Origin: Ascidiaceihabitans donghaensis
GTDB lineage: Bacteria > Pseudomonadota > Alphaproteobacteria > Rhodobacterales > Rhodobacteraceae
Reading direction: 5' to 3'
Assembly (NCBI RefSeq): GCF_900302465.1
Contig: NZ_OMOR01000001.1
Span: forward strand, 3,194,729 to 3,258,728
Length of the DNA: 64,000 bases
A program made the position numbers and the translations under genes. Shown here piece after piece: positions 8,323-59,337 of this stretch; the first letter of the stretch is position 1; every line of letters starts with the position of its first letter. Under the pieces are notes generated by a model. That model had not been told where the DNA came from, searched no databases, and saw only the letters and a list, made by a program, of their open reading frames with translations.

Positions 8323-8351
8323 CGTATAGACGAGGTCTGGTTTGGGATCAA
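8323..8351 (-). promoter_or_regulatory. Promoter for rplO-secY-adk
   Basis: -35 TTGATC (8346-8351), 17 bp spacer, -10 TATACG (8323-8328) followed by CCCCC. The -10 and its context match the rpsJ and rpsL promoters in this window. It lies between the inserted gene and rplO. Confidence 0.7.
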
Positions 8352-8438
8352 GCGCAGGATGCAAGCGGTGCGCCAATCGCGTTATTTGAAGCTGCCTCAC
8401 TATCCAAACTTTCTGGCTGTTGTTCCGGTCTTTTTTTC

Positions 8439-9200
8439 TTACGGGTCGCTGCTAAGAATTAGCTGCATTTGTTGCGCCTGAGGCAGTTGAAGCCCCGCTT
8501 TCTCGGAAACCGCTGCGATCCATTCAGAGACAAATGAAAAAATATCCGATGCGTTTTCGCTCAATAGTTCTGCTATTTCATCTCCGACGCGCAATTGGTC
8601 TTGAGTTGGACTTGGCAATTCATTCAAAATGGTTTCGAGCCTTTCCCCGTTGTCCCAAAACTGGAGCGCCGTTCCGAGAGGCCCTGCACCTAAAGTCTCT
8701 AAAGGTCCGTACAAAAGGTACAGGATGGTGTCTGGGTCACGACCTGGGATCGCGTCTAAACACATCTTTGAGAGGCTTTGCCGCTGAGCTCCGAACCAAT
8801 CTTGTAAGTGAGACAGCTGTTTCATATCATTTTCATTCAGTTTGCTTGGGACCCAAGAATGCGCATGATCGTTGAGGGTCAAGGATAGACCTTGAAATGA
8901 GTATTCGCTTGGGTTTCGATGGTCCTCGCAATTGGCGAGAACCGTAGACGCGAAAACCTTATGTTCGATGTCATCCTTTGGCGCTATGTCCAAAATCCAA
9001 GGTAAGGCCGCATACGTCGCGGGGTAGAGGGTGTCTTGGTGGTGCAAGCTTTCCCAAAACAGGTCATCTGCCACGTCGGCATCCCAAGCCTCTCGCAATA
9101 TGCGAAGCACGTCCTGTATGTCTTCAAGACCATGCGCACTGTAAAGGCGGGACCAAATCGGATCTGAAAGAGGTATTTTCATTTTGGCATCAGACAGCAC
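8439..9200 (-). CDS. Hypothetical alpha-helical (HEAT-like) protein inserted in the spc operon
   Basis: 253 residues from a GTG at 9200 (GAAGAG seven nt upstream) or 247 from the ATG at 9182. It has no signal peptide or membrane segment, is acidic, and is predicted largely helical. The segment SLHHQDTLYPATYAALPWIL resembles the start of small HEAT-like proteins that carry an HQGT-x-Y-x-AT-x-x-x-x-P-[FY]-L motif, some found among immunity-type proteins; this resemblance is from memory. It sits between rpmD and rplO, which are normally adjacent, with a terminator-like palindrome before it and a new promoter after it. Its composition is visibly more AT-rich than that of its neighbours, consistent with acquisition. 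Confidence 0.72.
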   Translation of the reverse strand: MLSDAKMKIPLSDPIWSRLYSAHGLEDIQDVLRILREAWDADVADDLFWESLHHQDTLYPATYAALPWILDIAPKDDIEHKVFASTVLANCEDHRNPSEYSFQGLSLTLNDHAHSWVPSKLNENDMKQLSHLQDWFGAQRQSLSKMCLDAIPGRDPDTILYLLYGPLETLGAGPLGTALQFWDNGERLETILNELPSPTQDQLRVGDEIAELLSENASDIFSFVSEWIAAVSEKAGLQLPQAQQMQLILSSDP

Positions 9201-9241
9201 AACCTTACTCTTCGCAAGTTTGATCCCTCGTTACAAAATGC

Positions 9242-9273
9242 AGAAACGCCCCGTGTTTCCACGGGGCGTTTCT
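9242..9273. terminator. Bidirectional terminator-like hairpin after rpmD
   Basis: GAAACGCCCCGTG, a 4-nt loop and CACGGGGCGTTTC form a perfect long stem. T-rich sequence follows at some distance on the minus strand (CTGCATTTTG). It probably ends the rpsJ-to-rpmD-side transcript before the inserted gene. Confidence 0.6.
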
Positions 9274-9283
9274 ACAATCATGT

Positions 9284-9305
9284 GGTGCACCAAGGTGCAC
9301 CTTAC
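9284..9305 (-). repeat. GTAAGG palindromic repeat, reversed copy
   Basis: GGTGCACC, AA, GGTGCACC, TTAC on the plus strand. It is the exact reverse complement of the copy at 10343-10364; the two copies flank rpsE-rpmD as inverted repeats. Confidence 0.75.
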
Positions 9306-9355
9306 GGGTTGCGTCCAGAACTTCTGAAATACCGGGGCGTCGCCCGTGAAATCCT

Positions 9356-9396
9356 CAAACGCTCCACTGGAGCGTTTGCCGCACCCGAAGGTGCGG
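9356..9396. repeat. Two adjoining hairpins directly 3' of rpmD
   Basis: First stem CAAACGCTCC / GGAGCGTTTG (9356-9378), immediately followed by CCGCACC / GGTGCGG (9379-9396). Neither has a T-run, so mRNA protection or processing is as likely as termination. Confidence 0.6.
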
Positions 9397-9404
9397 ACCG
9401 GAAT

Positions 9405-9593
9405 TCACCCCTTTTCTTCGATGATTTCGACCATGTGAGAGATCGAGTTCACCATACCACGCACGGAAGGGGTGTCTTCCAGCTCGCGTGTTTTGTGCAT
9501 TTTGTTCAGGCCGAGACCGATCAATGTTGCACGCTGTTTTGCAGGGCGACGGATGGGCGAGCCCACCTGTTTGATGACGATTGTTTTAGCCAT
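9405..9593 (-). CDS. rpmD: 50S ribosomal protein L30
   Basis: Small large-subunit protein, 62 residues: [20 protein letters not shown], then the [24 protein letters not shown] core that defines L30. The ATG lies 4 bp after the rpsE stop with a ribosome binding site (GAGGCC) inside the rpsE end. Downstream there is no rplO; instead a cluster of hairpins, a palindromic repeat and a terminator-like stem lead into an unrelated gene. Confidence 0.96.
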
Positions 9594-9596
9594 GGT

Positions 9597-10175
9597 TTAG
9601 GCCTCCTCAGTCGCAGCAGCTTCAGCTGCTGGCGCGTCGTCGCGCTTGGGCAGGATGTCAGCCACCTTTTTGCCGCGGCGCTGAGCGACGGAGCGAGGGG
9701 AGGACTCTTTCTTGAGGCCGTCCATGGTGGCGCGGATCATGTTGTACGGGTTCTGCGAGCCGATGGACTTGGACACAACGTCCTTGATGCCCAACATTTC
9801 GAACACAGCACGCATTGGACCACCGGCGATGATACCAGTACCTTCAGGCGCTGTCCGCATCACAACTTTGCCGGCGCCGTGGCGGCCTTCCATGTCGTGG
9901 TGTAATGTGCGGCCTTCGCGCAGCTGAACGCGGATCATTTGGCGTTTGGCTTGCTCTGTGGCTTTGCGGATGGCTTCAGGTACTTCTTTTGCTTTACCTT
10001 TGCCAAAGCCAACGCGGCCTTTTTGGTCGCCAACAACCACGAGGGCTGCGAAGCCGAAGCGCTTACCACCTTTTACTGTTTTGGAGACGCGGTTGATCGC
10101 GACCAAGCGGTCTGCGAATTCCGGTGTTTCGTCACGATCACGGCGTGGGCCGCGACGGTTTTCACGTTCTGCCAT
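9597..10175 (-). CDS. rpsE: 30S ribosomal protein S5
   Basis: S5 is a small-subunit protein involved in decoding accuracy and helicase activity on mRNA. The ATG at 10175 ([20 protein letters not shown]) is preceded by AAAGGA at 8-nt spacing; the ATG at 10184 touches that site and is rejected. The protein is 192 residues with the dsRNA-binding-like [27 protein letters not shown] and the second-domain [16 protein letters not shown]. An alanine/glutamate-rich tail follows. It is separated from rplR by about 200 bp that contain two palindromic repeats. Confidence 0.97.
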
Positions 10176-10304
10176 TGAGAACATCCTTTGATTGGTGGCG
10201 CTGCTTTAAGGCGGGCGCTCGTTTGGTCAATCCAAGTGGGCCAGAAGCCCCCGGATCATCGAGGCGGAGGGGATCCCCGCCTGCGCTGTTGTTTTGGGGT
10301 GCGG

Positions 10305-10364
10305 GGCGTATCAAGATACGCCTTACGCTGGATCGTTTACGGGTAAGGTGCACCTTGGTGCACC
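10305..10364. repeat. Two GTAAGG palindromes in opposed orientation (composite element)
   Basis: 10305-10327 is GGCGTATC, AA, GATACGCC, TTACG; 10343-10364 is GTAA, GGTGCACC, TT, GGTGCACC. The two units face each other across about 15 bp, the same arrangement seen at 18876-18929 and 19664-19717. The composite ends 8 bp from the rplR stop. Confidence 0.75.
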
Positions 10365-10371
10365 CTGCCGT

Positions 10372-10731
10372 TTAGATTTTCAGGCCGCCTTCGCGTGCTG
10401 CATCTGCAACCGCTTTGACTTTGCCGTGAAACAAGAAACCACCGCGATCGAAGTACGCTTCTTCAACGCCAGCTTTCTTCGCACGCTCGGCAATCGCCGC
10501 GCCCACTTTTGTCGCTGCTTCGACGTTGTTTTTGCCAACCGAGCCCAAACCTTTTTCCAATGTGGAGGCGGACGCGAGCGTCTTGCCATTCACATCGTCG
10601 ATCAGCTGAACTGAGATGTTTTTGTTCGAACGGTGAACGGAAAGACGCATGCGTCCTGCGTTCACTTTGCGGAGTTTGTTCCGAACGCGCATACGGCGCT
10701 TCAGAAACAGAGTTCTTTTGCTGTTTGCCAT
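10372..10731 (-). CDS. rplR: 50S ribosomal protein L18
   Basis: L18 binds 5S rRNA with L5 and L25. The 119-residue protein starts [22 protein letters not shown] and has the typical [18 protein letters not shown] and [25 protein letters not shown] segments. It follows rplF by 11 bp. After its stop the operon is opened by a 190-bp spacer with two palindromic repeats before rpsE. No promoter was found in that spacer, so read-through is expected. Confidence 0.97.
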
Positions 10732-10742
10732 TGTGTGCGTCC

Positions 10743-11276
10743 TTACTTCTTCTTGCCTTCTTTGCGGAAGACGAATTCGCCCTTATAGCGGATACCTTTG
10801 CCTTTGTAGGGCTCTGGTTTACGCCATGCGCGAATGTTCGCAGCGACTTGACCCACAAGTTGGTCGTCGATGCCTTCCACAACGATTTCGGTCTGCTTTG
10901 GCGCCGTGACTGTCACGCCTTCAGGGGCGGTGTAGTCGACGTCATGGGACAGGCCGAGGTTCAGTTTCAACGTGTTGCCGTTCATTGTCGCACGATAACC
11001 AACACCTTGGATTTCAAGTTCTTTCTTGAAACCGTCGGTCACGCCGGTCACCAAGTTTGCAACCATCGTGCGGCTCATGCCCCACTGCTGGCGTGCGCGC
11101 TTGGATTTGCCGCGTGGTGTCACAGTGACAGCGCCGTCTTCGATCGCGATTGTCACATCGTCCGTTGCTTTGAACGTACGCGTGCCTTTCGGACCTTTGA
11201 CTTCGATCGTTTGGCCCGACATGGAGGCGGAAACGCCTGCAGGAAGAGCGACTGGTTTTTTACCAATACGAGACAT
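10743..11276 (-). CDS. rplF: 50S ribosomal protein L6
   Basis: L6 lies near the GTPase-associated centre of the large subunit. 177 residues: [15 protein letters not shown] at the start, two L6 repeats (about 10-80 and 90-165), and the signature [14 protein letters not shown] near the C-terminus. It is spaced 12 bp from rpsH with an AAGGAGAT ribosome binding site. Standard spc-operon position. Confidence 0.97.
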
Positions 11277-11288
11277 TGATGTATCTCC

Positions 11289-11681
11289 TTAGAATACGGT
11301 GCAGAGCACTTCGCCGCCAACATTGGCTGCACGTGCGCTTGCGTCCGACATCACACCCTTTGGGGTGGAGACAATCGACACACCAAGGCCCTGACGGACA
11401 ACAGGAATGTCATTGACGCCCATGTAAACGCGACGACCGGGTTTAGAGACCCGCTTCAACTCGCGAATTACAGGTTCGCCCTCGTAATACTTCAGGCTGA
11501 TTTCGATGGCCGGGTGGCCGTCTTTGCCTGTCGTTGCTTCGTAGCCGCGAATGTAGCCTTCGTCCGCCAGCACGTCCAGCACCCATGCACGCAGCTTTGA
11601 CGCTGGTGTTTCAACGGTGGACTTGCCGCGCAATTGGCTGTTCCGGATACGTGTGAGCATATCTGCGATAGGATCGTTCAT
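11289..11681 (-). CDS. rpsH: 30S ribosomal protein S8
   Basis: Primary 16S rRNA-binding protein; in E. coli it represses the spc operon by binding mRNA near rplE. The 130-residue protein begins [20 protein letters not shown] and has the C-terminal signature [21 protein letters not shown]. Spacing to rpsN is 12 bp with GGAGAG as ribosome binding site. Whether S8 autoregulation operates here cannot be judged from the sequence. Confidence 0.97.
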
Positions 11682-11693
11682 CTTATGCTCTCC

Positions 11694-11999
11694 TTACCAG
11701 CTTGACTTGACCATGCCGGGGATTTGACCGGCAGAGCCGAGATCCCGCAACGCGATCCGCGAAATTTTCAGTTTACGGTAGTACGCGTGCGGACGACCGG
11801 TGAGTTGGCAGCGGTTGTGCAAACGAACAGCAGAGCTGTTGCGCGGCAGTTTCGCCAAGGCCAAGGACGCGCGAAAACGCTCTTCCATCGGCTTTTCCTG
11901 GTCGCTGATGATTGCTTTCAGCTCGGCACGCTTTGCAGCATACTTTTTCACCAGCTTTTCGCGTTTTACTTCACGCGCGATCATTGATTTTTTAGCCAT
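11694..11999 (-). CDS. rpsN: 30S ribosomal protein S14 (zinc-independent form)
   Basis: S14 in the head of the small subunit. The 101-residue length and the absence of a C-x2-C...C-x2-C motif mark the long, zinc-free (C-minus) form. The sequence opens [20 protein letters not shown] and ends with the signature [19 protein letters not shown] and GMVKSSW. Spacing of 16 bp to rplE and 12 bp to rpsH fits the spc operon. Confidence 0.97.
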
Positions 12000-12015
12000 G
12001 TGCTATCCTTCCCGC

Positions 12016-12570
12016 TTACGAGTTGAAGGGCATGTTGAAAGCTTTCAACAGGCTCTTTGCTTCGTCGTCGGTCTTCGCCGTTGTGGCGATAACGATGTCC
12101 ATGCCCCAGGTCTCATCCACTTTATCAAAGTCGATTTCCGGGAACACGATGTGCTCTTTCATGCCCATGGCATAGTTGCCACGACCATCAAAAGATTTTC
12201 CAGATACGCCGCGGAAGTCGCGGATACGAGGCATTGCAATCGTGATCAGACGATCAAGGAATTCATACATACGTGCGCCGCGCAGGGTCACTTTCGTGCC
12301 CAAAGGCATGTCTTCACGTACGCGGAAGCCCGCGATGGATTTCTTGGCGATGGTTGTCATGGCTTTCTGGCCAGCAATCGCTGTCAGATCTTCCTGTGCA
12401 GACTTGGCTTTCTTGCTGTCGCGAACCGCTTCAGCGCCACACCCGATGTTCAGGACGATTTTGTCCAGACGCGGGATCTGCATGTCGTTTTTGTAGCCAA
12501 ATTCTTCTTTCATCGCCGGACGGATTGTATCCGTGTATACCGATTTCAGACGGGGTGTATAATCAGCCAT
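12016..12570 (-). CDS. rplE: 50S ribosomal protein L5
   Basis: L5 binds 5S rRNA and forms an inter-subunit bridge. The 184-residue protein begins [20 protein letters not shown] and contains [18 protein letters not shown], the [25 protein letters not shown] region and the C-terminal [20 protein letters not shown]. The ATG overlaps the rplX stop by one base (TAATG), so translation is coupled. Confidence 0.97.
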
Positions 12571-13243: not shown

Positions 13244-13319
13244 ATGGTTTCTCCCGACCTGTAGGGGGCGATGCGTGCCTGATCCCTAGGGTTTCGATTA
13301 TACTGTTAGATCACGCAGC

Positions 13320-13550: not shown

Positions 13551-13561
13551 AGGTGCAGTCC

Positions 13562-13765: not shown

Positions 13766-13858
13766 TGCCATTTTCCTTTTCAACATCACCAGATGGCCCC
13801 GCTTTCGATTATTCGTCCGGGTGACCATGATTCTGGTGGAGGTCATGATAGATGGCTG

Positions 13859-13887
13859 CGTATAGGAGGGTTTGCACGGTGTGGCAA
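13859..13887 (-). promoter_or_regulatory. Promoter for rpmC-rpsQ-rplN block
   Basis: -35 TTGCCA (13882-13887), 17 bp spacer, -10 TATACG (13859-13864). The -10 context CCTCCTATACGC resembles the rpsJ and rpsL promoters. It restarts transcription after the rplP-rpmC interruption. Confidence 0.65.
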
Positions 13888-14006
13888 CCCCTAGCCCGCA
13901 ACTGTTTTTGCTTATGTTTTATTGGCTTCGGGGGTGATCCGCCGGGCTGTCTATATATGGTGTTTTGCCCTCTCGCCACGGGCAATCCCCTGCGCTATCA
14001 AACCCT

Positions 14007-14621
14007 ATGTCCATTACATCCCTCTTCGTGACCCGCCTTTACCGTGCCCATCTGTCTCAACAGGGCGCGATTGATCCATCCGAGCTGGAAAATTCCTGCT
14101 GGGCCATCGCCAATGATGATGAGGCGGGCCAAGCGTGGTGTGAGGACAACGGCTTTCCCGGCTACACCTCTTATGCGTCTTTGACCGACCTGCCCTGGCG
14201 CTTTCCGATCTTTGCCGATCTGGTCAAGGTGCTGGACGCCCATGTGGCGGCTTTTGTGGCCGATCTGGAGTTTGATCTGGATGGCAAAGAGATCAAACTG
14301 GAAGACATCTGGATCAATATCCTGCCCGAAGGCGGCGTGCATACGTCCCACATCCACCCGCATTCCGTGATCTCCGGCACGACCTATGTGGCGATGCCTG
14401 ATGGGGCGAGTGCCATCAAGTTCGAGGATCCGCGTTTGCAGATGATGATGGCCGCCCCTGCCCGGTCCAAGGACGCGCGGGCTGAGCTGAAGGCGTTCAC
14501 TTATGTGGCGCCTGAGGTGGGTGAAGTGTTGCTATGGGAAAGCTGGCTACGGCACGAGGTGCCGGTGAATATGGCGGAGGATGAAAGAATTTCAGTGAGT
14601 TTCAACTACTCTTGGAATTAA
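14007..14621 (+). CDS. TIGR02466-type 2-oxoglutarate/Fe(II) oxygenase-like protein
   Basis: Begins MSITSLFVTRLYRAHLSQQG at ATG 14007; the in-frame codons from 13965 are less likely. The protein is 204 residues with the features of the 2OG-FeII_Oxy_5 family: WINILPEGGVHTSHIHPHSVISGTTYV supplies the candidate iron ligands, and LLWESWLRHEVPVN with RISVSFNYSW supplies the distal histidine and the arginine expected to bind 2-oxoglutarate. The substrate is unknown. It is on the opposite strand, between rplP and rpmC, and is the first of two plus-strand genes inserted there. Confidence 0.8.
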   Translation: MSITSLFVTRLYRAHLSQQGAIDPSELENSCWAIANDDEAGQAWCEDNGFPGYTSYASLTDLPWRFPIFADLVKVLDAHVAAFVADLEFDLDGKEIKLEDIWINILPEGGVHTSHIHPHSVISGTTYVAMPDGASAIKFEDPRLQMMMAAPARSKDARAELKAFTYVAPEVGEVLLWESWLRHEVPVNMAEDERISVSFNYSWN

Positions 14622-14632
14622 AACTTCGTGAA

Positions 14633-14690
14633 ATCGGTGCGCGGCGGCGTGTCAGAGACACGCCATAAGCGACACAAAGAAGTTTTGGGC
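14633..14690 (+). repeat. Intergenic hairpin element, copy 1
   Basis: ATCGGTGCGCGGC, then the stem GGCGTGTC / GACACGCC with an AGA loop, then AAGCGACACAAAG...GTTTTGGGC. The same order of parts recurs at 15386-15450 after the next gene. Confidence 0.5.
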
Positions 14691-14781
14691 ACTCCGCCAA
14701 CACTTCCCGCCCTGCTTGCAAACGATCGAAAACCAATGGTAGCCTTGGTCATTGTACTAGTGAGTTTGGCGGGTCATTTTT

Positions 14782-15357
14782 ATGGAAATACTTTTTCTCA
14801 TTCTCGTCCTTTGCGTGGCGACTTATATCTTCGCGCCCAATGATAAAAAGCCGCGCCAACAGCACAAGCCACCGCCTGAAACGCAAAGCCCGCCTGCCCC
14901 CAGTCCTTCCTCGGCTGAGCCTCATAGACCCAAAGCGCCGCCCCAAAGCCAACAGCGCAAAAAGGTAGATCACGCGCCCCCGCCCCCCATTCCATCGTCG
15001 ATGGAATTGAAAGGCAAGGCATGGGTCATTGATGGCGACACGATTGTGGTCAACAAGTGCAAAATCCGGCTGGCAGGCATTGATGCGCCTGAGCTGGATC
15101 AGCCGTGGGGGCAGAAATCGAAATGGGAAATGGTGAAGCTGTGTAAGGGGCAGGTTATTACCGTCGCTTTGACTGGAGAGACATCCTATGACCGCTTGGT
15201 CGGCACCTGCTATTTGCCCGATGGGCGTGATTTGGGGGCCGAGATTATTAGAGCCGGGTTGGCTTTGGACGGGGGCGTGTTTTCCAAAGGTAAGTACAAG
15301 GATTTGGAAGACCCCGAGATGCGGCGGAAGTTGCGGGGGTATGGGCGGTGGAGATGA
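14782..15357 (+). CDS. Membrane-anchored thermonuclease (SNase-like) protein
   Basis: 191 residues. Residues 1-18 (MEILFLILVLCVATYIFAPN) form an N-terminal membrane anchor or uncleaved signal. A long proline-rich linker follows (about 20-70), then an SNase domain: AWVIDGDTIVVNKCKIRLAGIDAPE, then TGETSYDRLVGTCYLPDGRDLG and IIRAGLALD. The conserved Asp, Arg and Glu/Arg positions expected for staphylococcal-nuclease-like phosphodiesterases are present, so activity on DNA or RNA outside the cytoplasm is plausible. The stop codon lies inside a perfect 16-bp-arm palindrome that starts a hairpin array. It lies between rplP and rpmC on the opposite strand. Confidence 0.82.
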   Translation: MEILFLILVLCVATYIFAPNDKKPRQQHKPPPETQSPPAPSPSSAEPHRPKAPPQSQQRKKVDHAPPPPIPSSMELKGKAWVIDGDTIVVNKCKIRLAGIDAPELDQPWGQKSKWEMVKLCKGQVITVALTGETSYDRLVGTCYLPDGRDLGAEIIRAGLALDGGVFSKGKYKDLEDPEMRRKLRGYGRWR

Positions 15358-15639: not shown

Positions 15640-15658
15640 AATTCAGCAGCGTTGTATA

Positions 15659-15970: not shown

Positions 15971-16023
15971 TTTTAGATCCCATTTTCTTTGTAACCAAAG
16001 CAAACACTAGCCGGAAAGAAAAC

Positions 16024-18849: not shown

Positions 18850-19012
18850 GTAGGTGCCAGAGTTTGGTGTGGTGTGGTGGATCGAGATCCACCTTACCGG
18901 GTGCTGCGTAAGGTGCATCTTGATGCGCCTTTGCAAACAACAACGAAGCCCCGAACGAATCCGGGGCCTTGTCGATGGGGTCTGATAGGGTGGTTGGCGT
19001 GTGGGGTCAAGC
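18850..19012. repeat. Composite palindromic element, left direct copy
   Basis: Contains two opposed GTAAGG-family hairpins (18876-18897 and 18908-18929), the tract TTTGCAAACAACAACGAAGCC, a GC-rich stem (GCCCCG/CGGGGC, 18948-18969) and a stretch ending GTGGGGTCAAGC. The same parts in the same order occur at 19640-19776, except the GC-rich stem. The two copies bracket the plus-strand gene at 19001-19609. Confidence 0.75.
18982..19010 (-). promoter_or_regulatory. Promoter for rplB-rpsS-rplV-rpsC-rplP
   Basis: -35 TTGACC (19005-19010), 17 bp spacer, -10 TATCAG (18982-18987) on the minus strand. The right copy of the repeat keeps TTGACC but has lost the -10 (CGACGA). Confidence 0.55.
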
Positions 19013-19938: not shown

Positions 19939-19990
19939 CCGCGGGACGGCCCATCGCTCGCCCGGCGCCTGCGGCTTGATTCCGGGCTGG
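19939..19990. repeat. GC-rich spacer repeat, copy 1
   Basis: GCGGGACGGCCC...CGCCCGGCGC followed by GGCTTGATTCCGGGCTGG. The second copy is at 23063-23116. Both end within 10 bp of the stop codon of an inserted minus-strand gene. Confidence 0.55.
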
Positions 19991-22898: not shown

Positions 22899-22927
22899 CG
22901 TATAGGGGGAGTCGGTTAAGTCATCAA
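22899..22927 (-). promoter_or_regulatory. Promoter of the S10 operon
   Basis: -35 TTGATG (22922-22927), 17 bp spacer, -10 TATACG (22899-22904). The block ACTCCCCCTATACGCCC is identical to that in the rpsL promoter. The 348-bp gap 22771-23118 holds this promoter, the rpsJ leader and a GC-rich repeat. Confidence 0.75.
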
Positions 22928-28146: not shown

Positions 28147-28518
28147 TTATTTAGGCTTCTTGGCGCCGTATTTCGAACGACGTTGTTTACGGTCTTTAAC
28201 GCCCTGAGTATCCAGAACACCGCGCAGGATGTGGTAACGCACACCGGGAAGGTCTTTTACACGACCACCACGGATCAGAACCACAGAGTGCTCCTGAAGG
28301 TTGTGGCTTTCACCGGGAATGTAGGAGATGACCTCGAAGCCGTTTGTCAGGCGCACTTTGGCGACCTTACGCATAGCAGAGTTCGGTTTCTTTGGTGTCG
28401 TTGTATAAACGCGCGTGCATACGCCACGTTTTTGAGGACACTGCTCCAAGTGCTGCGACTTGGAAGTCTTACGCTTTGGCTGACGCGGCTTGCGGATCAG
28501 CTGCTGGATCGTTGGCAT
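28147..28518 (-). CDS. rpsL: 30S ribosomal protein S12
   Basis: S12 controls decoding accuracy and is the classic streptomycin target. Start at ATG 28518 ([20 protein letters not shown]); the open frame to 28644 is leader. 123 residues with [17 protein letters not shown] (Lys43) and [14 protein letters not shown]; both lysine positions linked to resistance are wild type. First gene of the str operon, with a leader of about 240 nt that carries a terminator-like hairpin. Confidence 0.98.
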
Positions 28519-28768: not shown

Positions 28769-28797
28769 CGTATAGGGGGAGTCGTAGAGGGTGTCAA
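28769..28797 (-). promoter_or_regulatory. Promoter of the str operon (rpsL)
   Basis: -35 TTGACA (28792-28797, perfect consensus), 17 bp spacer, -10 TATACG (28769-28774). It shares the ACTCCCCCTATACGCCC block with the rpsJ promoter. The 411-bp gap 28519-28929 otherwise holds only the leader hairpin and the start region of a small plus-strand gene. Confidence 0.8.
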
Positions 28798-29203: not shown

Positions 29204-30016
29204 ATGATCCAAGCCATCGGCCTTTGCCGCTTTTCCTACCCCGCCCTTGGCGGGTTTCAGGTCGAGCATGAAAAGATAGAGGATCGCATTGCCTATCTCT
29301 ATGCGGAGAAACGCTTGCAAGAACGCTTTGCCCTGTTTGAACACGTTGCGCTGCCTTGCCTACGCGCCCAGACCGATCCGAATTTCGAGATCATCATCGT
29401 CGTTGGTGACAGCTTGCCAGACATGCATTTGACCCGCCTCATGGACCTGATCGAAGATATGCCCCAACTACGTGTTCAGGTGCATCCCCCCCTGCCCCAC
29501 CGCCAAGGCATGCGCGACATTCTGAACGACGCGCGGCACGACAGGTCAAAGCCATGCCTGCAATTCCGCTTTGACGATGATGATGCCATCGGTGTGGATT
29601 TCATCACCCGCCTACGTGAGGCCGCAACAGATGCCAAACCGCTGACCGCGAAACATAAGATGGTGGCGTTCGATTTTCACCACGGGTGGACGGCTGAATT
29701 CACGGGCCAAGGGATCAGCGCGACACAGACCTACCGCCCGATGTTCACCGCTGCCTTGGCCGTTCAGGTCGCGGGTGGCAACGGGCAAAGCATCATGAAC
29801 TTCGGACACGAGAAGATGGGGCGCTTTATGCCGGTGGTCAGCTACGGGGACACGCCTATGTGGATACGGTCACACAACGACTTCAACGACTCTCGTCAAA
29901 AAGCCAACGCCAAACCCGTGCGTGTCAAACCTTTGAATGACGCGCAACGTGCACTGTTCAAAGACCGCTTTGCCATCGACGAAGACGCCATCAAAACAGC
30001 CTTTTCAGCCCTTTAA
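29204..30016 (+). CDS. Putative glycosyltransferase (PF11316 rhamnosyltransferase-like)
   Basis: 270 residues, cytoplasmic. The order RFSYPALGGFQV, RLQERFALFEHVALPCLRAQTDPNFEIIIVVGD, and the metal-binding acidic motif QFRFDDDDAIG (residues 120-130) is typical of the GT-A-like family annotated as putative rhamnosyl transferase. The donor and acceptor cannot be deduced. A clear relative is encoded at 30872-31687 (RFSYPAQGGF, FRLDDDDAM). Its 3' end overlaps that of the convergent DMT gene by 12 bp. It is likely involved in surface polysaccharide or glycolipid synthesis. Confidence 0.8.
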   Translation: MIQAIGLCRFSYPALGGFQVEHEKIEDRIAYLYAEKRLQERFALFEHVALPCLRAQTDPNFEIIIVVGDSLPDMHLTRLMDLIEDMPQLRVQVHPPLPHRQGMRDILNDARHDRSKPCLQFRFDDDDAIGVDFITRLREAATDAKPLTAKHKMVAFDFHHGWTAEFTGQGISATQTYRPMFTAALAVQVAGGNGQSIMNFGHEKMGRFMPVVSYGDTPMWIRSHNDFNDSRQKANAKPVRVKPLNDAQRALFKDRFAIDEDAIKTAFSAL

Positions 30017-30871
30017 CAAAGCCCGTTCGCGGTACAGCGTGAACAGCCCCATAGCGACCACAATCCCCGCCCCCAGCATCGTCAGACCATCGGGCCAATC
30101 GCCAAAGATCAGCCATCCCAGCAACAGCGACCAGATCAACCCAGTGTAGCGAAAGGGGGCTATGAACGACACATCGCCGGTGCGCATGGTCGCCACGCTA
30201 AAGTAATACCCGCCCAGAATGAACAAGGCCGCCAAGGCAATAAGGCCCGCAAACTGTGGCGTGACAGGGACCCAAGGCGTGGCCAAAGACGCAAAGCCTG
30301 AAAAGATCATCACCGACAAAATGGCACATAGGGTCACTGTCATGGACGGTACGTCTTTGGACAATTTCTTGGTGGCCAGATCGCGCACTGTCACACACAT
30401 CACTGCGGCCAACCCATACAAGGCGTAGACGTTGAAGCCGTCTGTGCCGGGACGCACAATCAATAAAACGCCGCTAAATCCCACCACGATCGCAAGCATT
30501 CGGCGCCAGCCTACTTTTTCGCCAAAAAACAATGCAGTGCCCAAAGTCACAGTCAAAGGAAGCGCTTGCAAGATCGCGGTCAGGTTCGCAAGCTGCATGT
30601 TAAACAGCGCATTAAGGAAGAAATACGCCGTCACAACTTCGGCCACACAGCGCAGTGCAATCAGCAGCCAATCGTCCCGACGTATCCGGAAATGCACGGT
30701 GCCAAGTGTTCGTGCAAGGAACAAGATCAGGATCGTTGACAACACCCCACGCAAAAACAGCATTTGAAACAGGGGCATCTGCGTGCCGATGGATTTGGTT
30801 GCGGCATCGTTGAAGGTGAAGCAGGCCATGGATGCCATCATCAACAAGGCACCGGCAAGATTTGGCGACAT
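30005..30871 (-). CDS. EamA/DMT-family membrane transporter
   Basis: 288 residues with about ten hydrophobic segments forming two EamA repeats (residues 5-135 and 150-282); FLRGVLSTILILFLA and RYTGLIWSLLLGWLIFGDWP are typical. The substrate is not predictable; relatives export amino acids or other small metabolites. The ATG directly abuts the stop of the upstream glycosyltransferase gene (TAG-ATG), so the two are co-translated. It converges on 29204-30016. Confidence 0.88.
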   Translation of the reverse strand: MSPNLAGALLMMASMACFTFNDAATKSIGTQMPLFQMLFLRGVLSTILILFLARTLGTVHFRIRRDDWLLIALRCVAEVVTAYFFLNALFNMQLANLTAILQALPLTVTLGTALFFGEKVGWRRMLAIVVGFSGVLLIVRPGTDGFNVYALYGLAAVMCVTVRDLATKKLSKDVPSMTVTLCAILSVMIFSGFASLATPWVPVTPQFAGLIALAALFILGGYYFSVATMRTGDVSFIAPFRYTGLIWSLLLGWLIFGDWPDGLTMLGAGIVVAMGLFTLYRERALLKG

Positions 30872-31687
30872 CTAAAGCGCCCTGACCGTATCGTAATCAA
30901 GTCCGAATTCGTTTCGCAGATAATGTCGCAAACGCTTTTCTTTCCAGTCACGGGCACGACCAGTTGGGGCGGCACCTGAGTCGTTGTCTTCATGCACCGA
31001 CCGGATGAACATCGGCCGGTTCACTTCGGTGAATGTATCATAGAATTGTGAAATGGCGCGGTGGTTACGGCTGAACACATTCTGTCCGGTATCAAGGCCC
31101 GTCACCAACGCCATGCCAACACCCAAAGGGGCGCGTTCGTAACATTCGCGCAGCGGCTGTTCCCGGTCGGATGTGTCCAGATAAAAACCCCGGTTGAAGG
31201 CAATGCAAAAGGGATCATCATGTAAGCGCAGCGGCAAAATCCCTGTCGCCAAAGCGCGCACACGGCCCACTGTGCCTTTGTGCATGGCATCATCATCATC
31301 CAACCGAAAGGTGGCAACGTGCGTTGCATCCGCGGCCTGCGGCAACGCATCGAAAGACGCTTTGACGGCCTGAATGTGGTTCATGCTGGGCAGTTTAATG
31401 ACGTGCAGCGATGGATGATCCGCCACAAGCGCATCCAGGCGGGCGCGGGCCGCATCGGGGAACGTGTCACCAACCAGTATCCCCGTTTGAAAATCTTGAT
31501 CATCCTGCAAAAGCAAACTGGGCAATGCCAAGGTTTCAAAATAGGCAAACCGTCGTTCCAGACGGTCGGTATCGTACAGTGTGGCTTCCACCACATCCAA
31601 CCCTTTGTCAGACAGGGCAAAACCACCTTGCGCCGGATAGGAGAAGCGCACCAAACCTTTGACGGCAATATTTATCTGATCTGACAT
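30872..31687 (-). CDS. Putative glycosyltransferase (PF11316-like), second copy
   Basis: 271 residues from ATG 31687 (MSDQINIAVKGLVRFSYPAQ; AGG five nt upstream). It is homologous to the protein at 29204-30016: FSYPAQGGFALSDKGLDVVEATLYDTDRLERRFAYFETLALPSLLLQDDQDFQTGILVGD and the acidic motif FRLDDDDAMHKG. Later parts (PLGVGMALVTG, NRPMFIRSVHEDNDSG) correspond as well. It is coupled to the DMT gene. Two related transferases in opposite orientation around a transporter suggest an old duplication with an inversion. Confidence 0.8.
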   Translation of the reverse strand: MSDQINIAVKGLVRFSYPAQGGFALSDKGLDVVEATLYDTDRLERRFAYFETLALPSLLLQDDQDFQTGILVGDTFPDAARARLDALVADHPSLHVIKLPSMNHIQAVKASFDALPQAADATHVATFRLDDDDAMHKGTVGRVRALATGILPLRLHDDPFCIAFNRGFYLDTSDREQPLRECYERAPLGVGMALVTGLDTGQNVFSRNHRAISQFYDTFTEVNRPMFIRSVHEDNDSGAAPTGRARDWKEKRLRHYLRNEFGLDYDTVRAL

Positions 31688-31793
31688 CGGCACCTGCATG
31701 TTTTCGTCTGCACGCTAGCGCCTTATGTCGAGGCACAAAACCCCTGTTTGCCTGTTGATGGCCCCCGCACCTCAAGATGGGGGGCCTGATAGC

Positions 31794-41655: not shown

Positions 41656-41949
41656 AAGACGAGGTCACCTTTCAGTTTTTCTCACGTGAGACAGTCACCG
41701 TCGGGCCACGGTGGCTATCCCTGAGACAGCGATGGAACCGGCCTATTCTTGCCACACGTCCCAATGCGTGGCTCCCGACCGATCCCTGCCTTGGAAATTG
41801 CCTGCTTTCAGGCCCTTACCAAGACAGGTGTTGCACAACGCTTTGCCGTTCCCTTCGTGACATTTTGGGTCAAAAAGAGGTAATTACGGCTCCTACGATG
41901 CACGACAGAAAAAACGGGTCTCGAATCAATCGAACCCGCGTGAATGGTT

Positions 41950-41978
41950 CAAATAGGAGGTTAATGCTGCGAACGCAA
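41950..41978 (-). promoter_or_regulatory. Candidate promoter for rpoBC
   Basis: -35 TTGCGT (41973-41978), 17 bp spacer, -10 TATTTG (41950-41955), with AACCTCC before the -10 as in the rpmC promoter. In the 481-bp gap 41656-42136 nothing else was recognised beyond small GC-rich stems in the rpoB leader. Confidence 0.5.
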
Positions 41979-44300: not shown

Positions 44301-44531
44301 AGTTTTACTCCAAATTTGGGGAAATTCCCCGGCTCAGTTCAGCCAGAGTATCTGGTAAGACACCCTGACAGTCGGGTCCTTACGGGGTCCGCCCAAAATC
44401 GCCACGCGCCTCTAAAAGGCGGAAGTAATCTGGTCTTTCCCGTCTCAGGCAGGAATTATGAAGCTAGGCTCCACCCACCGTCTCGGACGAATGTGCACAC
44501 AGCGACTCGGAAGCCGCATTGTGCAGCTTTG
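44301..44531 (-). promoter_or_regulatory. rplJ leader, possible L10 autoregulatory RNA
   Basis: The transcribed leader contains several potential stems and the tract GGTGGGTGGAGCC...CCTGCCTGAGACGG, which resembles L10 leaders known in other bacteria as the binding site for the L10(L12) complex. Assignment rests on position and general appearance; no covariance model could be run. Confidence 0.4.
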
Positions 44532-44560
44532 CGTTTAGGGGGTTTTAAGGTAGATGTGAA
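44532..44560 (-). promoter_or_regulatory. Promoter for rplJ-rplL
   Basis: -35 TTCACA (44555-44560), 17 bp spacer, -10 TAAACG (44532-44537) preceded by ACCCCC, one base off the TATACG found at other ribosomal promoters here. The 321-bp gap 44301-44621 holds only this and the leader. Confidence 0.6.
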
Positions 44561-47925: not shown

Positions 47926-48114
47926 CTGACTGCTCGCCCTTTTGCCGTGGCGCTGCTGCGCCGTAATTCATTGATTTCGCGCCTGTTTCCACAACCGCTT
48001 CCGAATAAAAATCGGCGCGAGGCTCGAATCGCCGCACGCCTGTCTATCGGTTAGATGTGCCGTTTACTCTGCAAACCCTCACACTTCAAGGGCTTACACC
48101 ATCCCCAAGCCGTC

Positions 48115-54572: not shown

Positions 54573-55417
54573 ACCGTGCCCTCCCAGATTGCTGTTGCTT
54601 GCATGCACTGATGCCCGCCAGTGCCTGTCACCATGGACAGCGTTTCGGGATCATCTTGGGTTGCCATGATCTCTAGCGTTTCTCCTGCGAACATCGGATG
54701 CACGCCGCGAAAGTCGAAGTGGTGCGGCATACGTCCTTTGTGCGCGGTGGCCGTTTGCATGAGCAACGTCGCTTGCAACGGCCCATGCACAACCAGCCCG
54801 GGGTAATGTTCGACGTTCAGCGTATAAGGCAGATCGTAATGGATGCGGTGCGCGTTGAAGGTCACGGCGGAATATCGCATCAACAACGTCTCGGATGTGC
54901 TGCGCGTGGTGTGCACATCGGAACTGGACGGCATGGCCCGCTTCTTTGGCGGTGTGTAGCTGTCCGGAATAGCCAGATAGACAATGTCTTGTCGTTCACT
55001 GATCGCCAAACCGCTTTCACCGTAAATGGCGTGATCAACAGTGACAAAAACCATCGGTCCGGCCGCGCCGGCTTTTTCCAAAACCGACCGGATTGAGGAT
55101 CGCTTTTCCAAGCGCTCACCCACCCGCAGCGGTGCGCCAAATTGCAAAGCACCACCAGCCCACATCCGGCGATCCAGACGCACAGGCGGTAAAAACCCAC
55201 CTAAGTACGGATGCCCGTCGGCCCCCAATTCGGACATCGGGGTTGCGGGCGGAAAGGCGCACCAGTGCCACAACGCTGGCAAAACATCGCCTTGTACGGG
55301 GGCTGCATCGCGTGGATTGCCGAGGGTGGCATGAAGTTGTGCGGCAAGCTGTTCCGAAACACCCCCTCTTTGGGTATCTGTGCGGCCTTCCCATGCGGTC
55401 AAATTCACCTGATCCAT
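54569..55417 (-). CDS. meh: MaoC/FAS1-like dehydratase, mesaconyl-C4-CoA hydratase-like
   Basis: 282 residues. The N-terminal FAS1-like hot-dog half ends around residue 140 (LWHWCAFPPATPMSELGADGHPYLGGFLPPV). The C-terminal half has the hydratase motif RYSAVTFNAHRIHYDLPYTLNVEHYPGLVVHGPLQATLL, where Asp194-type and His residues would be catalytic. Proteins of this kind include 3-methylfumaryl-CoA hydratase (Meh) and itaconyl-CoA hydratase. Translational coupling to the mct-like gene supports the first: isomerise mesaconyl-C1-CoA to the C4 form, then hydrate it to citramalyl-CoA. The final lyase gene is not in the window. Confidence 0.7.
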   Translation of the reverse strand: MDQVNLTAWEGRTDTQRGGVSEQLAAQLHATLGNPRDAAPVQGDVLPALWHWCAFPPATPMSELGADGHPYLGGFLPPVRLDRRMWAGGALQFGAPLRVGERLEKRSSIRSVLEKAGAAGPMVFVTVDHAIYGESGLAISERQDIVYLAIPDSYTPPKKRAMPSSSDVHTTRSTSETLLMRYSAVTFNAHRIHYDLPYTLNVEHYPGLVVHGPLQATLLMQTATAHKGRMPHHFDFRGVHPMFAGETLEIMATQDDPETLSMVTGTGGHQCMQATAIWEGTV

Positions 55418-55522
55418 ACTTTGCCTCCTTCTGGGTACCCCTTCTGATGGACCAAGTTGTGCAAATTAATCAAGCAATATTAATGACTTAACTGAATACC
55501 ACAGTATACCGGACTGCATTTA

Positions 55523-55589
55523 TGCATGTGCAGCAATCGCGCGACAGACTGATACAAAAAGGATATTTCGTCTTGTTTTTGCACATGCA
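55523..55589. repeat. Pair of related palindromes upstream of the hydratase gene's 5' spacer
   Basis: TGCATGTGCAGCAATC (from 55523) and TGCACATGCAGCATTC (from 55580) are near-direct repeats that each contain a CATGTG/CACATG-type palindromic core, 57 bp apart in the 243-bp gap 55418-55660. They could be operator sites for the mct-meh promoter; no regulator gene is adjacent. Confidence 0.4.
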
Positions 55590-55660
55590 GCATTCCCGCA
55601 AATGGCGAAAGAATCTGGGCATACAACCGCATACGACGATAATTTGAGCTGAAAAGACCC

Positions 55661-56308
55661 CTAAAGCGCCAATAACGCCGGAATGTCAGCCCCTGCAATG
55701 GCCTCGTGATGCGCGTTGATTTTGTCCAGTGGCCAGTCCCACCACGCCAGCGTCAGCAGGCGTTCCACAACATCCGCTTCGAAGCGCAGCTTTATCACTT
55801 GGCCGGGGTTTCCAACCACAACGGCATAGTCGGGAACATCACCGCCAACCACAGCCCCAGCTCCCACAATGACACCGTTGCCCAAGTGTGCCCCTGGCAA
55901 CAGGGTGCATCCGTCCCCCAACCAGCAATCATGGCCCACGACAGTATCGCGTTTCTGCACAAAACCGTCGCGGTAGCGACCGATGGTGTCGGCGTTGAAA
56001 ATCGGAAATGGAAAAGTGGACGCACCATCCATCGCATGGTTCGCTCCATGTGTGATGAAACGCGTGCCATGGGCGATCTGACAAAACTTGCCGATGCGCA
56101 AACGGTCTTTGGCGCCTTCGAACAGATAGGGGGCCAATCGTGCCGCATATCCACTTGGGTCCGGCAGTGGATCGAAGGTGCTGAAATACGTATAGTCACC
56201 AACGTCGATGTTGGAATGGGTCAATGCATTGCGCAAAAATACCGTGCCCGGCCAAGGTGTGCCATCAGGTAGCGTGACAGGATAAAGCGTGTCTGAATCA
56301 GGTAGCAT
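55661..56308 (-). CDS. CatB-type hexapeptide acetyltransferase
   Basis: 215 residues of the left-handed beta-helix (LbetaH) xenobiotic acetyltransferase family. Visible are RIGKFCQIAHGTRFITHGANHAMDGASTFPF, with the catalytic-type His, and repeated hexapeptides TVVGHDCWLGDGCTLLPGAHLGNGVIVGAGAVVGGDVPDYAVVVGNPGQVIKLRF. WWDWP near the C-terminus is also typical. The acceptor could be an antibiotic or a sugar; a housekeeping role is as likely as resistance. It stands between the mct-meh pair and a DUF1772 gene on the same strand. Confidence 0.85.
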   Translation of the reverse strand: MLPDSDTLYPVTLPDGTPWPGTVFLRNALTHSNIDVGDYTYFSTFDPLPDPSGYAARLAPYLFEGAKDRLRIGKFCQIAHGTRFITHGANHAMDGASTFPFPIFNADTIGRYRDGFVQKRDTVVGHDCWLGDGCTLLPGAHLGNGVIVGAGAVVGGDVPDYAVVVGNPGQVIKLRFEADVVERLLTLAWWDWPLDKINAHHEAIAGADIPALLAL

Positions 56309-56326
56309 GTTGGCTCCGGTGTTAGG

Positions 56327-56830
56327 TCATGCCTGTTTAGCATCCGCCCCCAGACGCAACAGCCCCCATCCCGCCAAGACCAAACAACCCGCACAAATAA
56401 CGGTACGAATTTGGTTAAAGACCTGCCATCTTAGCGAATAATCGGTCCATATCTGCGCTGCGGCCTCAATATCGACGGTATGAGGCACCAAAGCCAGCGC
56501 TTCGTTCATCGGCACATTCTGGCTCATGGTCAAAATCATTCCCCCTGCGACGTAGAGCCCCCCTGCCCCCGCAAATATCCACGCCACGTCGCGGTACCCT
56601 GCCCGCCATGCCAAAAACGCTGTGAGCGCAGCATAGAAAGGTGTTCCAAAGAAGGTCACAGCAAAAACTTCGTTGCGCACAGACGCATTCATACCCTGCA
56701 TTGCAGTGATGGCGACGTTTGGGTCAATTTGATCCAGCCCCCACATGGTTGAACACACCCAAGCGTAGAAGAACCCGAAAACTGCGCCAAAGGACAAAAG
56801 GGAAAGAAGTGCGGAAAACCGAAGAAGCAT
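56327..56830 (-). CDS. DUF1772-like membrane protein
   Basis: 167 residues with four hydrophobic helices: LLSFGAVFGFFYAWVCSTMWG, FGTPFYAALTAFLAW, WIFAGAGGLYVAGGMIL and TVICAGCLVLAGWGLL. VPMNEALALVP and a W-x-x-F-N-x-[IV]RT motif (WQVFNQIRT) fit the DUF1772 (anthrone-oxygenase-like) family. The role is unknown. It lies 18 bp upstream of the acetyltransferase gene and is probably co-transcribed. Confidence 0.78.
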   Translation of the reverse strand: MLLRFSALLSLLSFGAVFGFFYAWVCSTMWGLDQIDPNVAITAMQGMNASVRNEVFAVTFFGTPFYAALTAFLAWRAGYRDVAWIFAGAGGLYVAGGMILTMSQNVPMNEALALVPHTVDIEAAAQIWTDYSLRWQVFNQIRTVICAGCLVLAGWGLLRLGADAKQA

Positions 56831-56975
56831 ATTGTGAACCTTTTTGAAGCCTTACATGTGATACGCAAGCAATGGCGTGTTCCGTCGTTGAAAAATGTTG
56901 CCAAACTTCACGTGGTGCCGGACGCAATGCCTATGCTACCTTTAAACCACGTCAACGCTTGTATTGGATAAACCC

Positions 56976-57950
56976 ATGCCACGGCCCGAATTGTCGCCCA
57001 ACACCTTTGGTGCTATTCTTGGTTTGCTGGCCTTTGCAGTCTTTTCCACACATGACCTGATCATCAAACAATTGGGTGGAGTCTATTCGGTCTTTCAGAT
57101 CGTCTTTTTCACCGCCCTGTTCAGCTTTCCCATCATCACACTGGTATTGATGCGGGATCATAAGGCCAGCACCTTGCAACCGCGGCACCCCTACTGGATG
57201 GGGCTGCGGTGCATCAGCGGGGCGGCATCTGGGTTATGTGCGTTTTACGCCATCACGCAATTGCCCTTGTCACAGGTCTATGCGTTCATCTTTGCGGCAC
57301 CCCTGATTATCACCTTGCTGGCGATCCCGATATTGGGTGAAGTTGTAAGACTGCGGCGGGGGTTGGCGATTGGCGTCGGCATGATTGGCGTTTTGATCGT
57401 ATTGCAGCCCGGTGCCAGCCCGCTTGAGGCCGGACACATCGCAGCGCTGGTTGCAGCCTTTGCAGGGGCCATGGTGTCCATCATCACCCGCAAGATTGGC
57501 AAGGACGAACGCGGTGTCGTCATGATCTTGTACCCTATGATGACCAACTTGATACTGACGGCAATGGTTCTGCCTTTTGTCTATGTACAAGTGCCGTTGC
57601 ACGACATGGGGTTACTGGCTTTGGATTCGTTTCTGGTGCTGATCGCAATGGCGCTGCTGGTGGCGGCTTACACCCGTGCAGATGCGATGGTCGTGGCCCC
57701 TATGCAATATTCGCAAATGATTTGGGCAACCTTGTTCGGGATCTTTCTGTTTCAGGAATATCCCACGTGGTCGACCTATCTGGGGACAGTAGTGATTGCG
57801 CTTTCGGGCTTTTACATCCTGCGCCGCGAAGCCACCAGCGATGTGTCCAGCACGACGCCTGTGTCCAAGACCCGCACCCGCATCGGGCATGTGGCATCTC
57901 TGCGCGTCGGACATGTTCTGCGGCGCAACAGAACCAAAGGCATGGACTGA
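56976..57950 (+). CDS. EamA/DMT-family transporter
   Basis: Start at ATG 56976 (MPRPELSPNTFGAILGLLAF); a TTG at 56964 is possible. About 324 residues, ten hydrophobic segments in two EamA repeats (14-140, 160-290): FSTHDLIIKQLGGVYSVFQI, LPLSQVYAFIFAAPLIITLLAIPILGEVVRLRR, PMQYSQMIWATLFGIFLFQEYPTWSTYLG. The hydrophilic C-terminal tail (VSSTTPVSKTRTRIGHVASL...) is longer than usual. Convergent with tuf copy 2; they share a bidirectional terminator whose first base is the last base of the stop codon. Substrate unknown. Confidence 0.88.
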   Translation: MPRPELSPNTFGAILGLLAFAVFSTHDLIIKQLGGVYSVFQIVFFTALFSFPIITLVLMRDHKASTLQPRHPYWMGLRCISGAASGLCAFYAITQLPLSQVYAFIFAAPLIITLLAIPILGEVVRLRRGLAIGVGMIGVLIVLQPGASPLEAGHIAALVAAFAGAMVSIITRKIGKDERGVVMILYPMMTNLILTAMVLPFVYVQVPLHDMGLLALDSFLVLIAMALLVAAYTRADAMVVAPMQYSQMIWATLFGIFLFQEYPTWSTYLGTVVIALSGFYILRREATSDVSSTTPVSKTRTRIGHVASLRVGHVLRRNRTKGMD

Positions 57951-57984
57951 AAAAGGCCGCCCCGGTGTATGGGGCGGCCTTTTG
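57950..57984. terminator. Bidirectional terminator between DMT gene and tuf copy 2
   Basis: AAAAAGGCCGCCCC, GGTGTAT, GGGGCGGCCTTTTG, with T-runs on both strands. Same sequence as at 24124-24157 near tuf copy 1. Confidence 0.88.
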
Positions 57985-58074
57985 TGTTTGGTGCCTCAGT
58001 GAGAGGGAGTGGGTTCTCGCGCATCTGATGATACGCTGCCACCCACCAATTGTCCGGGCTGACGCCCGCACAAT

Positions 58075-59250
58075 TTACTCAGTGATTTTGGACACAACGC
58101 CGGCGCCGACTGTGCGGCCGCCTTCGCGGATCGCGAAGCGCAGGCCTTGCTCCATCGCGATTGGCGCGATCAGCTCAACGTCGAACTTCAGGTTGTCGCC
58201 CGGCATAACCATTTCCGTGCCTTCTGGCAGCGCAACTGTGCCCGTCACATCCGTTGTACGGAAGTAGAACTGTGGGCGGTAGTTGGCGAAGAATGGCGTG
58301 TGACGGCCACCTTCTTCTTTGGTCAGGATGTAGGCTTCGGCCTCGAACTTGGTGTGTGGCTTCACGGAACCCGGCTTGCAAAGAACCTGGCCGCGCTCAA
58401 CACCTTCACGGTCAACGCCGCGCAACAATGCGCCGATGTTGTCGCCCGCTTCACCACGATCAAGCAGCTTGCGGAACATTTCAACGCCTGTGCAGGTTGT
58501 CTTCGTTGTGTCACGAATGCCAACGATTTCAATCTCTTCGCCCACGTTGATCACGCCGCGCTCAACACGACCTGTCACAACTGTACCACGACCGGAGATC
58601 GAGAACACGTCTTCAACAGGCATCAGGAACGGCTGGTCAACCGCACGCTCAGGCGTTGGGATGTATTCGTCAACCGCAGCCATCAGGGCTTTGATCGCGT
58701 TTTCGCCGATTGCTTCGTCACGGCCTTCCATGGCTGCCAGAGCGGAACCAGGGATCACTGGAATGTCGTCGCCTGGGTACTCGTAAGAGGACAACAGCTC
58801 ACGGATTTCCATTTCAACCAGCTCAAGCAGCTCGTCATCGTCGACCTGATCCACTTTGTTCATGAAAACAACCATGTGCGGGATGCCAACCTGGCGGCCC
58901 AACAAGATGTGCTCACGTGTTTGTGGCATCGGGCCGTCAGCCGCGTTCACAACCAAGATCGCGCCGTCCATTTGCGCGGCACCGGTGATCATGTTTTTGA
59001 CGTAGTCGGCGTGGCCGGGGCAGTCGACGTGCGCGTAGTGGCGTGTCTCTGTCTCGTATTCAACGTGCGCGGTCGAGATCGTGATCCCACGCGCTTTTTC
59101 TTCGGGCGCGCCGTCAATCTGGTCATACGCCTGGAAGTCACCAAAGTACTTGGTGATCGCCGCTGTCAGCGTCGTTTTGCCGTGGTCAACGTGGCCGATT
59201 GTGCCGATGTTGACGTGCGGCTTATTGCGTTCAAACTTTTCCTTAGCCAT
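58075..59250 (-). CDS. tuf: Elongation factor Tu, copy 2
   Basis: 391 residues, the same protein as at 24262-25437, [20 protein letters not shown] to VVSKITE. DNA identity with copy 1 begins at the stop codon and extends just beyond the start (TTAGCCATGGGA on the plus strand), after which the flanks diverge. That sharp boundary is the mark of gene conversion. It lies alone between a terminator and its own promoter, upstream of the accessory block that separates it from tRNA-Trp and secE. Confidence 0.98.
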
Positions 59251-59308
59251 GGGAGGCGCCCTTTTCTTTCATGGGGCCGCAGATCGACCCGGTGTTCATC
59301 TCGGGCGC

Positions 59309-59337
59309 GATTTATTGGCTTTGGTTAGAAAAATCAA
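59309..59337 (-). promoter_or_regulatory. Promoter for tuf copy 2
   Basis: -35 TTGATT (59332-59337), 17 bp spacer, -10 TAAATC (59309-59314). It is in the 126-bp gap upstream of the gene. Confidence 0.55.

Follow-up and report, generated by a model that had tools for sequence, protein, structure and literature searches.

Results

Promoter sites and GANTC elements in the ribosomal gene cluster

The 64,000-nucleotide stretch of the Ascidiaceihabitans donghaensis genome analysed here (the window) encodes ribosomal and rpoBC genes on its minus strand and is of Rhodobacteraceae type, the best named matches of its rpsC protein being an uncultured Rhodobacteraceae metagenome-assembled genome, Pseudosulfitobacter and Tateyamaria. 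At breaks in the ribosomal operons, both here and in relatives, promoters of a single design seem to start transcription afresh. We describe these promoters together with a pentamer that accompanies most of them, GANTC, which is the palindromic target of CcrM and which probably marks them as members of the CcrM/GcrA class.

A first-pass annotation of the stretch had listed nine such sites, all of which were read at their coordinates on the minus strand, as are the features that follow unless noted otherwise. Four of them carry, exactly as claimed, a TATACG -10 element 17 bp from a -35 element starting with TTG: rplO (TTGATC-N17-TATACG, 8323–8351), rpmC (TTGCCA-N17-TATACG, 13859–13887), rpsJ (TTGATG-N17-TATACG, 22899–22927) and rpsL (TTGACA-N17-TATACG, 28769–28797). 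The other five, described as having weaker -10 elements, are the promoters of rpsM (TTGACG-N17-TAAGCA, 5208–5236) and rplB (TTGACC-N17-TATCAG, 18982–19010), a promoter-like site before rpoB (TTGCGT-N17-TATTTG, 41950–41978), a weak one before rplJ (TTCACA-N17-TAAACG, 44532–44560) and a doubtful one before tuf2 (TTGATT-N17-TAAATC, 59309–59337). The 17-bp spacing holds at all nine, TTG starts the -35 at eight (rplJ, with TTC, is the sole exception), and none of the nine -10 elements has T at position -7. When spacings of 9 to 26 bp were scanned for TTG-TATACG pairs, the minus strand of the window gave four at 17 bp, one at 24 bp and none at any other, and the plus strand had two, with spacings of 10 and 16 bp. 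Two of the weaker sites are followed by known leader RNAs, namely the L2-Alphaproteobacteria ribosomal protein leader (RF03142, 18794–18859) after rplB and the Rhodo-rpoB RNA (RF03074, 41691–41781) after rpoB, and promoters at these two places therefore fit. Upstream of the L2 leader RNA, the rplB leader forms a 5' hairpin round a conserved GATTCGT, both in the window (18935–18970) and in relatives, with stems that differ between them.

The identical block said to be shared by rpsJ and rpsL does exist, at a length of 19 bases instead of 17. The C-rich flanks of the -10, which had been likened to a stringent-control discriminator, are also real as sequence, and the rpsL alignment is C/G-rich at +6 to +11. 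The most informative part of the rpsJ-rpsL block is one that the first reading overlooked: it holds CGACTC-CCCC-TATACG, in which GACTC is a GANTC.

We searched each site for this pentamer, starting 5 bp ahead of the -35 and ending 90 bp past the -10, with offsets given from the first -10 base, and found exactly one GANTC at eight of the nine. At rpsJ (22909–22913) and rpsL (28779–28783) it is a GACTC inside the spacer, at offset -9 in both. At the other six it falls in the leader: GAATC at +22 for rpsM (5187–5191), at +34 for rplO (8290–8294) and at +31 for rpmC (13829–13833, within the longest listed open reading frame and upstream of the L29 domain); GATTC at +26 for rplB (18957–18961, at the loop of the 5' leader hairpin) and at +28 for rpoB (41923–41927, within a terminator-like hairpin); and GAGTC at +29 for rplJ (44504–44508). 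The chance of eight in nine within 47 positions is about 2e-10 at the density of the window (66 GANTC in 64 kb), for positions that were picked post hoc. By way of GANTC we also found a candidate beyond the original nine, upstream of nusG (TTGAAG-N17-TAAACG, 48061–48089), with a GATTC at +36 (48026–48030). The tuf2 site was dropped from the set, as it has no GANTC nearby and its conservation was not found.

Placement of the motifs across the genome

If TATACG boxes were strewn at chance frequency, the promoter claim would lose its footing. In the 4.08-Mb genome, the pattern TTG-N20-TATACG (a TTG-starting -35 hexamer, N17 and TATACG) has 14 matches against 31 for the backward-read control, so there is no excess in number; their placement, on the other hand, is not random, as eight of the 14 sit before r-protein genes. 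Four are rplO, rpmC, rpsJ and rpsL of the window, and the others, outside it, precede rpsO (C1:442440, L150) and rpsB (C1:2179612, L154), both supported by hidden Markov model (HMM) matches, and rpsA (C1:2735217, L156) and a tRNA-Val/rpmJ unit (C1:491352, L146), where rpsA and rpmJ are named from their translations. A further match stands before a tandem glycine riboswitch (C1:3420417, L158), with no GANTC nearby. The alternative -10 TAAACG gives 21 sites genome-wide, the window example being the nusG candidate.

The spacer form is rarer still: TTG-N11-GANTC-N4-TA occurs at six sites in the genome (17 for the backward control), five of which precede translation genes. These are rpsJ, rpsL, rpmB for L28 (GATTC at -9, C1:1033932, L148; HMM-supported), the tRNA-Val with rpmJ for L36, and a tRNA-Lys (GACTC at -9, C1:287882, L147); the sixth lies before a gene whose translation reads as a GntR-type regulator. 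Taking upstream regions in a 400-kb sample as background, GANTC is found at 12 of 15 translation promoters and at two of 26 promoter-like sites, or at 10 of 13 against two of 26 once rpmB and nusG, which were found through GANTC, are removed (Fisher 2e-5). The two background sites stand just before the signal recognition particle (SRP) RNA and before a gene reading as a thiolase. Near C1:623870 (L163), CGACTC lies directly before the SRP RNA together with a TTG -35 and TATATG. The stretch before one 16S gene showed no GANTC at any promoter-like site.

Conservation in relatives

The exact TTG-N20-TATACG pair recurs in the upstream regions of relatives for rplO (26/42), rpmC (14/78) and rpsJ (11/76), counts that include a few duplicate genomes, and at each other spacing tried the same regions gave 0–2 pairs. 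It is absent upstream of rpsM (0/24) and rplB (0/91), whose -10 elements differ; a TTGAC promoter with 17-bp spacing could nonetheless be called in 20 of 24 rpsM sequences, and the rplB promoter recurs in many relatives. Before rpsL, TTGAC-N17-TA aligns in 26 of 27 genera. Outside the window, 29 of 30 rpsB loci were readable, and all 29 have TTG-N17-TA at about -140 to -200; in seven the -10 is TATACG. The rpoB site is kept in one of the four relatives inspected (the same-genus G010, and not G014, G015 or G027), and of rplJ only the downstream GAGTC is retained in G010, at a like place. By eye, no fixed site was seen upstream of rpsE, rplN and rplA, where no promoter was expected.

For rplO, rpmC, rpsJ, rplB and rpsM, 208 promoters were called in 297 upstream regions (89 gave no call), after duplicate genomes (L066, L116 and L120) and a few too-short stretches had been left out. 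Of the 208, 171 have a GANTC at +12 to +45, where 8.3 would be expected, and 34 have one in the spacer, against an expectation of 3.2. By operon, the downstream site is present in 25/31 (rplO), 47/53 (rpmC), 26/45 (rpsJ), 54/59 (rplB) and 19/20 (rpsM), a 20.7-fold enrichment overall; of the 24 pentamers built to the same pattern, the runner-up reaches 3.1-fold. The central base varies in rplO (A16, C6, G3, T2 among called promoters) and in rpmC. In the 27 rpsL genera, own genome included, a spacer GANTC is found in 23 (0.42 expected) and exactly at -9 in 20.

At rpsJ the pentamer lies only in the spacer in 14 promoters, only in the leader in 25, in both in one and in neither in five, which is suggestive of two positions that largely exclude each other; on the tree the two states change 7 and 4 times, and of five independent pairs about two oppose, none agree and three show no difference. 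The site is less regular in rpsO and rpmB: GANTC lies within 200 nt in 22 of 28 readable rpmB loci, mainly at about -30, -9 or +15 to +39, and in 18 of 30 rpsO loci, at least three of whose starts were misread by the script. A GAATTC-like motif follows the rpmB promoter on its 3' side in many genera.

Promoters and operon breaks

The first-pass annotation had proposed that one promoter type stands where operons are interrupted, and had called for a comparison with relatives whose operons are intact. We scored a junction as intact if the gap to the upstream gene was below 600 nt (rplO) or 300 nt (rpmC, rplB, rpsJ). The comparison bears the proposal out, as the presence of a promoter tracks interruption: promoters were called at 24 of 26 broken against three of 14 intact rplO junctions, and likewise at 53/69 against 1/6 for rpmC, 47/64 against 2/12 for rplB and 22/23 against 4/20 for rpsJ. 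The pentamer itself, taken within 200 nt upstream, behaves in the same way at rplO (24/26 broken, 5/14 intact), rplB (58/64, 6/12) and rpsJ (23/23, 2/20). In three relatives with intact operons (G012, G015 and G027), the 260 nt before each of rplO, rpmC, rplB and rpsJ contain no GANTC, and all three have one before rpsM.

To account for shared ancestry we used a quickly built tree (89 rows) from the concatenation of nine proteins, on which counts of changes do not separate gain from loss. The rpsJ junction changes 11 times and yields seven independent pairs, of which about five agree and none oppose for promoter and break (median p 0.06), and about six agree and none oppose for GANTC and break (median p 0.03). 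On average, the five pairs at rplO go the same way in 3.2 and the opposite way in 0 for the promoter (2.8 and 0 for GANTC), the three at rpmC in 1.6 and 0.1 (1.0 and 0.5 for GANTC), and the five at rplB in 2.3 and 0.1 for GANTC. Pairs at rplO, rpmC and rplB are too few, so significance is out of reach there, and rpsJ alone approaches it.

Operon breaks are common among these relatives and not special to our genome. The rplP-rpmC break, which had been put down to foreign genes, holds a TIGR02466-family gene and an SNase-like gene (13965–15357, plus strand); the former occupies the same place in G010, G016, G017 and G018, and is therefore no fresh insertion.

CcrM and GcrA genes, and other features of the window

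The genome encodes a GcrA, by a match to PF07750, and a CcrM of 366 aa (L279) that covers positions 2–350 of the 350 in profile NF050803.

Within the window, position 28518 is the most likely start of the rpsL protein (MPTIQQL), since the match to the S12 model sets in only at residue 43 of the long open reading frame. Between rpsL and rpoC (29204–31699) lies an EamA transporter gene flanked by two rhamnosyltransferase-like genes, which are on opposite strands, and similar stretches (CCAGCCCGGAATCAAGC...) stand at 19978 and 23104, in the rplW-rplB and tuf1-rpsJ intervals respectively.

Discussion

In the sequences compared here, promoters of one design, their link with operon breaks, a conserved GANTC and genes for CcrM and GcrA are found together. 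The -10 element without T at -7 is in itself ordinary: it belongs to an alphaproteobacterial class already published, as passages of PMC8407463 report for the translation promoters of four Alphaproteobacteria including R. sphaeroides. Our sites resemble these sigma70 promoters (the CarD/CdnL class) in their TTG -35, in having A, C or G at -7 and in standing before translation genes, and differ from them in the GANTC element, which the portion of PMC8407463 available to us does not mention. What appears to be new is that most of these r-protein promoters conserve a CcrM site, a known promoter architecture put to new use.

That architecture has been described in Caulobacter. According to passages of PMC3708114, a conserved CGACTC between -35 and -10 of ftsZ, and near the start of mipZ, is needed for activation by CcrM; promoters with GANTC between -10 and -35 are treated as a separate cell-cycle class in part of PMC4287350; and GcrA is described, in part of PMC7403470, as binding sigma2 and stimulating open complexes at methylated promoters. 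The likeness to the GcrA/CcrM promoters of ftsZ, mipZ and ctrA P1 extends to the position of the element (GANTC or CGACTC in the spacer or near the start), to its conservation and to the presence of both genes. The targets differ, being r-protein operons, two tRNA genes and the SRP RNA here and division and cell-cycle genes in Caulobacter, as does the alphaproteobacterial order. Among the matches listed, no open-licence PMC paper with GANTC at ribosomal-protein promoters in its title or abstract was found. In the portions of main text available to us, 'ribosom' does not occur in the GcrA/CcrM papers PMC7987155, PMC3973325, PMC3667746 and PMC3708114, and occurs once in that of PMC11514494, concerning the removal of rRNA reads.

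We consider it probable that the sites are sigma70 promoters of CcrM/GcrA architecture placed on ribosomal operons. Housekeeping sigma70 promoters, with a TTG -35, a 17-bp spacer and a TATA-type -10, would drive the r-protein operons at the points where these are split; a -10 lacking T at -7 would open poorly, and GcrA, held by sigma70, would bind the methylated GANTC and aid open-complex formation, possibly with CarD acting alongside it. Behind the replication fork each GANTC would stay hemimethylated until CcrM acts, so that r-protein transcription could respond to replication and growth. That these GANTC sites are methylated and bound by GcrA, and the sign of the effect, is what we infer from this arrangement.

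Several observations speak against it. At rpsB, GANTC lies within -32 to +45 in two of 29 readable loci and is missing from that span in 27; the site is therefore not obligatory, and we dropped GANTC as a mark of every conserved r-protein promoter. The pentamer is likewise lacking at tuf2 and at rplO of the close relative G010, and at rpsA it occurs only at +59. Both search regions, the spacer and +12 to +45, were selected after inspection of the data. At rpmC a GANTC within 200 nt is not clearly tied to the break (39/69 broken, 1/6 intact, p 0.09), and more generally the relatives share descent, so that the support for the promoter-break link is modest once corrected by the tree. At 639 bits, the CcrM match is below the NCBIfam equivalog cut-off of 830. 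Finally, in the part of PMC8116508 available to us, Tomasch et al. suggest from ctrA that methylation may not be of major importance for regulating genes in Rhodobacterales.

Could the sites be ordinary CarD-dependent sigma70 promoters with no methylation input, GANTC being retained for another reason? This would sit well with the published class, whose -7 base all nine of our sites match, and with an rpsB promoter conserved mostly without the pentamer. It is nevertheless unlikely in our view, as it leaves unexplained both the roughly 20-fold, position-specific excess of GANTC and its presence in 23 of 27 rpsL spacers. Perhaps, instead, GANTC is no methylation site and forms the core of the sequence bound by some unknown sequence-specific activator: both its flanks are kept in rpsL, a C ahead of it and CCCC behind, and 17 of the 23 have C at the centre. 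Yet GATTC (3), GAATC (2) and GAGTC (1) also occur in rpsL spacers, GANTC is found on either side of the start, and it is the palindrome that CcrM recognises in a genome with a ccrM gene; such an activator is the least probable of the explanations that we weigh.

A role in RNA has also to be weighed for the leader sites, which could be parts of a 5' hairpin, attenuator or terminator and carry no signal at the level of DNA. In every one of 55 folded rplB leaders, hairpin pairing takes in part of the GATTC, three of its five bases being unpaired in 53; T is the central base in 53 of 54. Given the pairing and the fixed T, an RNA role could retain the site there. Pairing, partial or full, also holds for all 27 folded leaders of the rpsJ leader class, and in the rpoB and nusG leaders a hairpin and T-run surround GATTC. 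As an account of the whole pattern this is improbable, if less so than the activator: spacer sites are not transcribed from these promoters, the central base is free to vary in rplO and rpmC, and the rplO GANTC is wholly unpaired in nine of 25 folded leaders. Some leader-located sites may, judging from the predicted folds, serve RNA structure as well.

The setting also recalls the stringent and growth-rate controlled ribosomal promoters of the E. coli type, which share the target genes and a G+C-rich stretch after the -10.

If the CcrM/GcrA reading is right, what would it mean for the cell? Through promoters with a CcrM site, the making of ribosomes may be coupled to DNA replication. A bolder version, which we put forward tentatively and would not yet bet on, is that in this family the replication-coupled methylation cycle gates the whole of ribosome synthesis, with CcrM/GcrA governing growth globally through r-protein operons, the SRP RNA and some tRNA genes, and with the promoters born at operon breaks usually arriving with a CcrM site. 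The pattern runs counter to the suggestion, in the part of PMC8116508 cited above, that replication-coupled methylation is no major regulator in Rhodobacterales, and shows that breaks in ribosomal operons and promoters of one design recur side by side. Were it to hold, an epigenetic mark of the cell cycle would control the largest biosynthetic investment that the cell makes, which would provide a direct link between replication and growth.

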